A DNA stretch of 64,000 nucleotides, from assembly GCA_030428205.1 (NCBI GenBank), contig JAUIBK010000005.1:1-64000 (forward strand), in the 5' to 3' direction. Numbering within the stretch: the first letter of the stretch is position 1; each line of letters begins with the position of its first letter. Of the stretch, positions 27,704-62,646 are shown piece by piece. The notes under the pieces are model-generated. The model was given only the letters and a program-made list of their open reading frames with translations, was not told where the DNA came from and did no database searches. The stretch is from a bacterium (lineage in GTDB: Bacteria; Bdellovibrionota_C; UBA2361; RFPC01). A program made the translations under genes and the position numbers.

Positions 27704-27746
27704 CCAATTGGATAGAGAAAATCTTTGATTTTCTCTATCCAATTGG
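27704..27746. repeat. Perfect 20-bp inverted repeat (hairpin)
   Basis: Bases 27704-27723 and 27727-27746 are exact reverse complements with a three-base loop. This strong hairpin lies 80 bases upstream of the lipoprotein start and downstream of the structured element. It may terminate transcription from the acetyltransferase gene on the minus strand, but no U-tract follows on either strand. Confidence 0.8.
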
Positions 27747-27821: not shown

Positions 27822-28043
27822 ATATACCCCGTGAGATCGGCTCTGTTGTGCTCTCTGAAAGATTGTGTCGCGTATGGTGGTGTGAAAGCTAATCGCTTTC
27901 ACGCGTTTTTCTGCACGGGGTATATTTGTCCTCCCCAGGCCCATAAATGGGCCGTGCGGCCTCCCCGAGGAGGCCTCGAAAATGCTTCGCATTTTATACT
28001 CAATCAGTTTTGTCTGCGACAAACCTGCGTTCATTGAGTATAT
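27822..28043. repeat. Multi-hairpin structured element, copy 1
   Basis: This 222-bp segment consists of: outer stem ATATACCCCGTG (27822-27833) paired with CACGGGGTATAT (27914-27925) around an 80-base copy-specific insert, then hairpins GGCCCAT/ATGGGCC, GGCCTCC/GGAGGCC and AAAATGC/GCATTTT, and a final compound stem ATACTCAAT/ATTGAGTAT with GTTTTGTC/GACAAAC inside. The insert has its own hairpin GTGAAAGC/GCTTTCAC with loop TAATC. The 130 bases from 27914 match copy 2 (62517-62646) at all but one position. The element's end overlaps the 3' coding end of the GNAT-like gene. Strand of transcription, if any, is unknown. Confidence 0.88.
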
Positions 28044-29067
28044 GCTCTGCAAGAATAGAGGAGGGATTCCCATTTTGGTGATAAACAGCCTTTTCAATAG
28101 CTTGAGTAAGCGATGTTCGTTTGAAATAGACGAGTTGGTCGTTGCCGAAAAATTGGGGGAGATATCCACCGAAGGTATAACCGTAACGTTCTAATTCATT
28201 AACACAGTGATGGGCTGAAGGATCCTCACAGTTAACAAAGAGAATTGGGCTGTCAGTTTTTGAACAGTGCGCGATCTGCCCGAGGTAGTCCTCGGCTGTT
28301 CCAAGCAGTGATGGCTGGAGAAACGAGTGTGATACTCCTGTTTGATAATAGTGGCACGTTCTGATAGCTGGGGTGTCCGCAGGGAGTGAGTAGGTTGATT
28401 CGCAAGACGATCTCAAGTCGTGATCGATGCACCGTGCAAGGCCGAGCTGGTCGTTTAAGTTGAGTACAAGAGATGCATGCTTTTGAGGTATGTACAGTGT
28501 CTTTCTCTCTTGGAAGTCCTGTTGAAAGAGTTTCACAAAGAGTTGTGCGGAGTGGCGTTTTGATTGTGGTACGCCACTTGTTCCATTTCGAGAGAGTGGA
28601 CGGTTGCGTAGTTGATGATTTGGATAATACCCAGGAAGAATACCGAGTTCTTTACACTGCAGAGCCTCTTTGAGGAACGTATCAGTTCCTGGAAGTCCCG
28701 ATTTTACAGAGGCGAGAAGGGTGTGCCAGCTTCGCCGCTTGGCAACATTTGAGAGATACTCCGAGAGCGTCTTGGCAATCTGGGGAAGTTGGGAGAAGTG
28801 ATCTGGGTGGCAGACAAGGTGTTCGAGGTGAGCAGAGCCTTTAACACCAACCTCTTCATTATAGGCGATATGGCATACGAGTTCACCATCGAGCTCACCA
28901 ACGATGCTCACAAAACGTGAACCGATATGGCTCTTCCAAAATTGTAGATCGTATACTCCAGGAATTGGATAGCTACGGCCGTATGAGGCCCAGAAGAGCT
29001 TGGTTAACTTTCTGAGCAAAGCGTCGTTGTCTGGACTCAGAGCAAAAATTCGAAACTGTAATGACAT
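28000..29067 (-). CDS. GNAT-like acyltransferase, C-terminus within repeat element
   Basis: The 355-residue protein has an N-terminal region (about 15-150) suggestive of a GNAT acetyltransferase fold (RFVSIVGELDGELVCHIAYNEEV, then HLEHLVCHPDH as the acetyl-CoA-side strand), and a second half of similar size possibly forming another GNAT lobe. No substrate can be named. The last 14 or so residues are encoded by the structured repeat (27822-28043), implying that the element inserted at or replaced the original 3' end. The promoter must lie in the 330-base region before hflX, which is divergent. Confidence 0.6.
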   Translation of the reverse strand: MSLQFRIFALSPDNDALLRKLTKLFWASYGRSYPIPGVYDLQFWKSHIGSRFVSIVGELDGELVCHIAYNEEVGVKGSAHLEHLVCHPDHFSQLPQIAKTLSEYLSNVAKRRSWHTLLASVKSGLPGTDTFLKEALQCKELGILPGYYPNHQLRNRPLSRNGTSGVPQSKRHSAQLFVKLFQQDFQERKTLYIPQKHASLVLNLNDQLGLARCIDHDLRSSCESTYSLPADTPAIRTCHYYQTGVSHSFLQPSLLGTAEDYLGQIAHCSKTDSPILFVNCEDPSAHHCVNELERYGYTFGGYLPQFFGNDQLVYFKRTSLTQAIEKAVYHQNGNPSSILAEHILNERRFVADKTD

Positions 29068-32325: not shown

Positions 32326-32463
32326 GATAGGGTTCTGTATCTCAATACTTCTTCGTTGTATACCAGGTGCAAATCAAAGTCCCCGCTCTCGGTGCTCAAT
32401 GAATCGGGAATTTCAAATGCGGGGAGTATAAATTGTACTATAAGAAACGGTGATTCCACTACC

Positions 32464-53982: not shown

Positions 53983-54056
53983 GGCCACGTAGCTCAGCTG
54001 GTTAGAGCGCAGAACTCATAATTCTGAGGTCGGTGGTTCGAGTCCACCCGTGGCTA
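53983..54056 (+). tRNA. tRNA-Met (anticodon CAT)
   Basis: The 74-base sequence folds as a cloverleaf: acceptor GGCCACG with CGTGGCT, D-arm AGCTCAGCTGGTTAGAGC, anticodon loop CTCATAA, and T-arm GGTGGTTCGAGTCCACC. There is no encoded CCA. It most resembles elongator tRNA-Met; a tRNA-Ile2 with a lysidine-modified CAT cannot be excluded. The 3' end (from 54044) recurs in the following tandem repeats. Confidence 0.93.
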
Positions 54057-54352
54057 TTCTTAAATTCTTGGGGATGATCAACTGTTGAGAGCCTGAAGCG
54101 ACATTCATTTCACCACGAACAGAACGGGTGGACTCGAACCACCTGAAAAAATACTGCTGAGAGGCCAATCGCGACAGCGATTGGAGATACCACCCGTGGC
54201 TATTCTTAAATTCTTGGGGATGATCAACTGTTGAGAGCCTGAAGCGACATTTATTTCACCACGAACAGAACGGGTGGACTCGAACCACCTGAAAAAATAC
54301 CGCTGAGAGGCCAATCGCGACAGCGATTGGAGATACCACCCGTGGCTATTCT
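54044..54352. repeat. Two tandem 146-bp repeats bounded by tRNA 3' end copies
   Basis: The 17-base tRNA 3' segment at 54044-54060 recurs at 54190-54206 and 54336-54352, spaced exactly 146 bases apart. The sequence between is repeated almost identically (differences include ATTCAT/ATTTAT and TACTGC/TACCGC). Each unit also has an inverted 20-base copy of the T-arm (54124-54143 and 54270-54289) and a hairpin CCAATCGC/GCGATTGG. Confidence 0.9.
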
Positions 54353-62449: not shown

Positions 62450-62646
62450 ATATACCCCGTGAACGTCCGTTTGTCGTACTTCTTGGTCAAAATCTGATCG
62501 ATTTTGGCGATTCTTTCACGGGGTATATTTGTCCTCCCCAGGCCCATATATGGGCCGTGCGGCCTCCCCGAGGAGGCCTCGAAAATGCTTCGCATTTTAT
62601 ACTCAATCAGTTTTGTCTGCGACAAACCTGCGTTCATTGAGTATAT
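62450..62646. repeat. Multi-hairpin structured element, copy 2
   Basis: The 197-bp copy has the same order of stems as copy 1 (27822-28043): ATATACCCCGTG (62450-62461) with CACGGGGTATAT (62517-62528) around a 55-base insert, then the GGCCCATATATGGGCC, GGCCTCC/GGAGGCC, AAAATGC/GCATTTT and ATACTCAAT/ATTGAGTAT stems. The insert differs from copy 1, but its hairpin CAAAATC/GATTTTG keeps the loop (TGATC). It lies 62 bases upstream of acs, so it is in that gene's promoter or leader region. Confidence 0.88.

Follow-up and report, generated by a model that had tools for sequence, protein, structure and literature searches.

The analysed window, a 64,000-nucleotide stretch of a bacterial genome, contains two copies of a hairpin-rich repeat, at 27822–28043 (copy 1) and 62450–62646 (copy 2), whose parts are listed in Table 1. 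They share a constant part of 130 nt at 99% identity (27914–28043 versus 62517–62646), which begins with the 3′ strand of the 12-bp outer stem P1. The two copies have this stem, ATATACCCCGTG/CACGGGGTATAT, in identical form, and the sequence it encloses carries a hairpin with different stem bases in each. The initial annotation had described two copies with one mismatch in the shared part, an identical outer stem and copy-specific hairpin stems in the inserts, and we found all of these features. The right end of copy 1 overlaps the final codons of an open reading frame (ORF) on the minus strand (28000–29067). About 75 nt before copy 1 lies a perfect palindrome, CCAATTGGATAGAGAAAATC-TTT-GATTTTCTCTATCCAATTGG (27704–27746), which may be a terminator. 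Elsewhere in the window, two 146-nt copies, 99% identical, are arranged head to tail at 54044–54335, the first beginning inside the final bases of a tRNA gene (53983–54056).

Table 1 Repeat copies in the window and their parts (window coordinates; hp, hairpin)
Feature	Position	Strand	Description
Copy 1	27822..28043	+	Mosaic of a long left arm and a short-subfamily right part
Copy 1, left end	27822..27833	+	5′ strand of outer stem P1, ATATACCCCGTG
Copy 1, hp1 (first hairpin)	27882..27902	+	GTGAAAGC-TAATC-GCTTTCAC; minus-strand loop GATTA
Copy 1, P1 3′ strand	27914..27925	+	CACGGGGTATAT
Copy 1, conserved linker	27926..27937	+	TTGTCCTCCCCA
Copy 1, hp2	27938..27953	+	Subfamily-specific stem; minus-strand GNNA loop in long subfamilies
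Copy 1, hp3	27958..27975	+	GGCCTCC-CCGA-GGAGGCC
Copy 1, hp4	27979..27995	+	Minus-strand loop GAA, closed by GC (GCGAAGC)
Copy 1, right terminal arm	27995..28042	+	TATACTCAAT...ATTGAGTATA; inner hairpin with minus-strand loop GCA at 28015–28017
Copy 2	62450..62646	+	Short subfamily
Copy 2, left end and P1 5′ strand	62450..62461	+	
Copy 2, hp1	62488..62506	+	CAAAATC-TGATC-GATTTTG; minus-strand loop GATCA
Copy 2, P1 3′ strand	62517..62528	+	
Solitary right arm, related family F3	32380..32430	-	TATACTCCCCGC...GCGGGGA

The genome of the window (G000; 3.76 Mb, 81 contigs) contains many further copies. A blastn search with copy 1 returned 44 matches, in some cases several fragments of a single copy, and the terminal repeat TATACYCMRTRANNNYAGGTTTGTCG, allowing up to 3 mismatches, occurred at 68 sites, compared with 0 for a reversed-pattern control. 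A covariance model of the core of this family (hereafter F1), termed R1, gave 39 matches in G000 at E ≤ 0.01 and none in 27 other genomes of the order. Blastn with copy 1 likewise found nothing in 36 relatives, so that, among the genomes searched, this precise family occurs in G000 alone. Contig ends C5, C12, C19, C31, C70 and C81 fall inside copies; given these assembly breaks, the true copy number is likely above our count. The 21 full F1 copies that we aligned measure 195–242 bp.

Forty full or partial copies could be sorted into three subfamilies. The two inserts, described as unrelated in the initial annotation, proved to be left arms of two of these subfamilies, one long and the other short. 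In further copies (for example, L040 at C39), left arms are joined to other right parts, so that the copies are mosaics. Of the swappable cassette proposed earlier, what stands is that arms reassort between subfamilies; we saw nothing to indicate a dedicated mechanism of exchange. One 53-nt copy consists of two terminal repeats alone, and the lone terminal repeats that we inspected resemble copies that have decayed or been truncated.

Some F1 copies are adjoined by members of two related families, F2 and F3, which have different ends and different stems and keep the first hairpin with loop TGATC and a linker resembling TTGTCNTCCC. Searching 57 genomes by blastn with an F3 copy gave matches in G000 and four others, of which three belong to the same family and one, with a short linker match, to another family of the class. 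We built a second covariance model, R2, from the left-arm core of F2, F3 and copies from genomes G001–G003, including no F1 copy. Run on the 64 kb of the window, R2 recovered both copies, at E = 2.6e-6 and 2.2e-4. At E ≤ 0.001 it matched 8 of 45 genomes of the phylum, all 45 belonging to one class: G000 (51 matches), G013 (17), G002 (14), G003 (14), G044 (13), G001 (10), G006 (8) and G039 (1). R2's E-values are approximate, as the tool itself states, and the remaining 37 genomes, with 0 matches, serve as background. Covariance-model searching, advanced earlier as the way to reveal more copies in the genome and its relatives, thus yielded many. The distribution is patchy, with 14 matches in G003 compared with 0 in G004 of the same genus. 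One copy measured from each gave lengths of 124 bp (G003), 127 bp (G013), 174 bp (G002) and 169 bp (F2).

The copies in G006 have the same core with other ends, AACCGTTTAA. Two of the seven inspected carry 9-bp direct repeats (GATGGATGA, ACCGACCGA), 222 bp apart, and a third has a possible 7-bp repeat. The combination of the shared core with different ends and 9-bp repeats suggests that the core may be independent of any one transposition system. Copy 1 and an F3 copy had no match in phages or plasmids, a G003 copy had none in plasmids, exact patterns had none in viral contigs, and the exact F1 pattern alone had none in GTDB contigs; records of the window's own genome may be missing from these databases.

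Several copies showed additional arrangements. F3 copies L095, L096, L097, L123 and L126 contain additional hairpin-rich inserts between the two arms, and L050 and L078 carry similar inserts within the first hairpin; these are perhaps a second, smaller palindromic repeat nested in the element. By eye, L189 (G013:C74) and L196 (G013:C80) share the same flank and the same TA and hold two different copies in opposite orientation, reflecting strain variation or a duplicated site. Some G044 copies (L210, L212) are inverted pairs with a common GCCACGTAGGCT palindrome tail.

We analysed constraint on the stems in alignments of diverse copies. For hp1 we used 39 copies picked for diversity (alignment A4), comprising 28 of 60 copies fetched from relatives, 6 from F2, F3 and G001, and 5 from F1. 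Pairing was kept in 98.5% of 273 cells, and fell to 52–61% when the partner was slid by one column. The closing C-G pair is invariant in the 39 copies, and changes on both sides occur at 6 of the 7 pairs. The resulting 79 both-side cells compare with 21.9 ± 4.3 in shuffled alignments, a value reached by 0 of 500 shuffles. Both-side cells were also in excess in the R2 set (27 versus 9.3 in shuffles) and in the F1 core of hp2–hp4 (44 versus 14.0), all such cell counts being inflated by related copies. The numbers of changed pairs and of pair types showed no clear excess, being reached, respectively, by 245 and 279 of 500 shuffles for the 39-copy set, by 45 and 320 for the R2 set and by 228 and 82 for the F1 core. 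Alignment A2 comprises 27 copies, and its structure omits most hp4 pairs because the columns are out of register. Alignment A1 was left out of the pair counts because its right hairpin is misaligned. Rows L079, L098, L112 and L117 were dropped, and L107 was excluded from alignment A3.

The loop of hp1 varies little. With its closing pair, it could be resolved in 106 of 115 cores, reading CTGATCG in 75, CTAATCG in 9, CTGGTCG in 8 and CTTGTCG in 4, with others rarer. P1, too, occurs in many paired versions: a best-match scan, in which some pairings arise by chance, gave 38 haplotypes. The youngest subfamily comprises 19 copies, some of them interrupted by contig ends. In it, variable columns made up 11 of 114 in stems and 44 of 121 in unpaired regions (p = 1.1e-6), or 11 of 114 and 19 of 73 once the left spacer was removed (p = 0.004); given the non-independence of the copies, both p-values serve as description. 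Together, the covariation in three alignments and the lower variability of stem columns in a young subfamily bear out the earlier proposal that selection acts on structure.

The folds of both window copies are far more stable than those of dinucleotide shuffles. For copies 1 and 2, respectively, z-scores were −6.25 and −7.16 for plus-strand RNA, −8.32 and −9.78 for plus-strand DNA, and −8.90 and −10.22 for minus-strand DNA. Across the 21 full copies, the minus strand folded better than the plus strand in all 21 with DNA energies and in 16 with RNA energies. The predicted shape depends on the energy set. With RNA energies the two ends of the element pair with each other in 18 of 21 copies (plus strand) and 19 of 21 (minus strand), and two arms form in only 3 and 2; the best RNA fold of copy 2, for example, joins the element's ends and leaves the outer stem unclosed. 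With DNA energies, the two arms are closed in 15 of the 21 copies on the plus strand and in 16 on the minus strand.

The hairpin loops show a marked strand preference. We scanned the elements, some sequences including a little flank, for perfect hairpins. Among 37 unique triloops, those starting with G and ending with A numbered 13 on the minus strand and 0 on the plus strand. The corresponding numbers were 10 and 3 among 36 unique tetraloops (p = 0.09), and 21 and 1 among 32 unique pentaloops. Counted by copies, 70 of 132 triloops were GNA on the minus strand (GAA 28, GCA 19, GTA 13, GGA 10), so every middle base occurs. By comparison, the window outside the copies has two such triloops on the minus strand and three on the plus strand, of 69.

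Anchored patterns applied to 43 F1 sequences placed these loops at defined positions. On the minus strand, the right inner loop was GNA in 23 of the 24 sequences in which it was resolved. All 25 resolved hp4 loops were GNA, with the D subfamily, whose hp4 loop violates the rule in 8 of 9 copies, lying beyond the reach of this pattern. The hp2 loop was GNNA in 24 of 25; loops such as GCTA and GTTA obey the GNNA rule, not the GNRA rule of RNA. The available text of a published study names a GNA or GNNA loop, together with two or more G-C pairs, as the rule for extra-stable DNA mini-hairpins (PMC4686876). Many loops on the minus strand of the element are GNA, GNNA or GANNA, the first two of which follow this DNA rule; on this basis we favour folded single-stranded DNA over RNA and consider minus-strand single-stranded DNA the likeliest form.

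The positions of the copies point to mobility. Simple longest-ORF calls placed an ORF on both sides of 81 of 93 copies examined, with the two neighbours oriented −/+ (21), −/− (21), +/+ (20) and +/− (19), hence without bias. A fixed 3′-UTR RNA, which we considered, is unsupported by this overall gene orientation. In G013, 12 copies have an ORF upstream, and in 11 of these it lies on the same strand. Among the 21 full F1 copies, A precedes the left TATA in 19 and T follows the right TATA in 14. At C7, C62 and C66, copies in tandem or nested arrangement join as GGGGTATATACTC, GAGTATATACCCC and GGGGAATATACCCC; these junctions at TA are compatible with insertion there, whether or not the dinucleotide is duplicated. 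The presence of TA at both ends fits either a TA duplication or an element carrying its own TA, and a 4-bp TATA or ATAT duplication is disfavoured by the C7 tandem junction and by copies with a differing outer base. Owing to the lack of gene-orientation bias and the ends at TA, the copies look like non-autonomous mobile elements and not like a fixed RNA gene. We saw no autonomous copy in G000, either in searches with Pfam DDE_3 and DDE_Tnp_1, which gave 0 matches each, or among the lone terminal repeats inspected.

The nearest known kind is the bacterial miniature inverted-repeat transposable element (MITE), especially the CIR elements of Caulobacter. Small, gene-less repeats with TA ends and strong folds are an established class, as the available parts of three papers describe (PMC2229807, PMC10969869, PMC5896051). 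Accordingly, the initial annotation's view that the element is unlike REP or ERIC repeats holds for sequence and layout, but not for the general type. The element is short, multi-copy and dispersed, and F1 has terminal inverted repeats; in F2 and G003, the first bases alone match. Its GC content (0.453–0.525, mean 0.498, in the 21 full F1 copies; 0.474 in the window) departs from the A+T richness that Delihas, in the part of the review available, lists as usual for MITEs, with YPAL as an exception (PMC2229807).

CIR elements of Caulobacter and Brucella are described in the same partial source as having two long arms and a linker, TA termini, a conserved motif in the terminal loop and unexplained mobility (PMC2229807). 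F1 shares the TA termini. With DNA energies most of its 21 full copies are predicted to take the two-arm form, and with RNA energies most pair end to end, the latter a difference from CIR. Whereas CIR is given as ~110 bp with a GANTC loop (PMC2229807, in the part available), the superfamily ranges from 124 bp (G003) to 242 bp (F1), has extra hairpins and carries TGATC-like loops, the loop tally containing no GANTC in the terminal loop. Correia/NEMIS, ERIC and RUP, in the same portion of that review, are similarly small, TA-ended, strongly folded and multi-copy (PMC2229807); in contrast to them, the superfamily conserves a loop and linker across families and genera with differing ends and stems. 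REP/BIME sequences with TnpAREP, and IS200/IS605, offer a parallel in strand-specific recognition of single-stranded hairpins, in which loop bases can matter (PMC8266576, as far as its available text goes). However, REP palindromes are 20–50 nt long and follow GTAG, whereas our element is larger and hp1 is preceded by GTGG in part of the aligned copies and by other bases in the rest. QMITE1 and QMITE2 of Coxiella are also multi-copy MITEs with strong folds, but QMITE1 is found in no other genome according to its authors, QMITE2 has 7–9 bp repeats, and the available parts of both papers describe no covarying stems (PMC5896051, PMC10969869). In a literature search covering titles and the beginnings of abstracts, the superfamily was absent among the matches listed. 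It is set apart by its loop, its length, its extra hairpins, stems that covary across genera around a near-fixed loop, and a strand-specific GNA/GNNA tendency. The mechanism itself is possibly new, although putative.

These observations are best accommodated if the window copies belong to a superfamily of ~120–240-bp repeats from a single bacterial phylum, in which most ends bear TA and the stems covary around conserved loops. The copies would be non-autonomous mobile elements, with an enzyme supplied in trans that recognises folded single-stranded DNA; the predicted strand is opposite to the one on which the element was first described. We assign this explanation as a whole a probability of about 0.5. 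The earlier choice between a structured non-coding RNA family and mobile structured DNA leans towards the latter, which best fits the absence of gene-orientation bias, the nested and tandem copies at TA and the patchy distribution.

The main competitor, which we regard as rather unlikely, is a mobile structured RNA, in which the transcript folds and a protein binding the CUGAUCG loop likely controls mobility or host message stability, in the manner of the RNase III and RNase E sites of Correia and ERIC elements. It would also account for the covariation and stem constraint and would match the RNA roles of MITEs described in the available parts of PMC2229807 and PMC10969869. Wobble counts in hp1 lean towards plus-strand RNA (12 G·U to 4 A·C on the plus strand), but the ratio weakens to 24:15 (p = 0.10) when P1 is included. 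A CCC-TCCG-GGG or CCCC-TTCG-GGGG hairpin in F2, F3, G002, G003 and G044 resembles a plus-strand UNCG tetraloop of RNA, and the former can equally be read as a minus-strand C-GGA-G loop of DNA. The unbiased gene orientation and the minus-strand GNA/GNNA loops both count against the RNA reading. Rfam, too, had no match to the element at the gathering score, the sole match in the window being a tRNA elsewhere, and at a relaxed E-value 11 loci gave 9 matches, each below its gathering score. We therefore consider a structured RNA family the weaker of the two earlier alternatives.

An ordinary MITE is less probable still. Here a DDE transposase with a TA target would bind duplex terminal repeats, and the inner hairpins would be passengers kept perfect by template switching at palindromes and not by selection. 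The TA ends and ~26-bp terminal repeats of F1, the 53-nt copy of just two such repeats, the mosaics and the end-to-end RNA pairing of most F1 copies would all follow naturally. Passenger hairpins are harder to reconcile with loop ends, a linker and a strand-specific G...A signature that are kept while stems change, or with the persistence of hp1 and the linker across genera with different ends, and G000 has neither DDE_3 nor DDE_Tnp_1. Least probable, and by our estimate very unlikely, is an element beneficial to the host that acts in regulation or replication, as a primase, helicase or promoter hairpin site would, and was spread by several transposases. The occurrence of the same core with TA ends and also with AACCGTT ends, two copies of the latter kind having 9-bp repeats, suits this idea, but the 37 of 45 genomes without a match (including G004 beside G003) and the truncated and decayed copies speak against it.

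Returning to a mobile element recognised as folded single-stranded DNA, we tentatively put forward a more specific version, which we hold with considerable doubt. The superfamily would be phylum-specific, and the selected unit would be a single-stranded DNA sculpture of mini-hairpins with GNA/GNNA loops on one strand. Ends, stems and even insertion style vary by lineage while the C-GANNA-G hairpin and the short linker stay, so that the folded strand itself would serve as the address for a mobilising enzyme of a new kind.

A 2007 review describes the means by which gene-less bacterial repeats such as CIR and Correia move as an open question (PMC2229807). Covarying stems around near-fixed loops, present in several genera whose ends differ, separate what is kept (loop, linker and fold) from what may change, and thereby single out features for testing. 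Should the folded strand be DNA, the superfamily would add a natural use of GNA/GNNA mini-hairpins.
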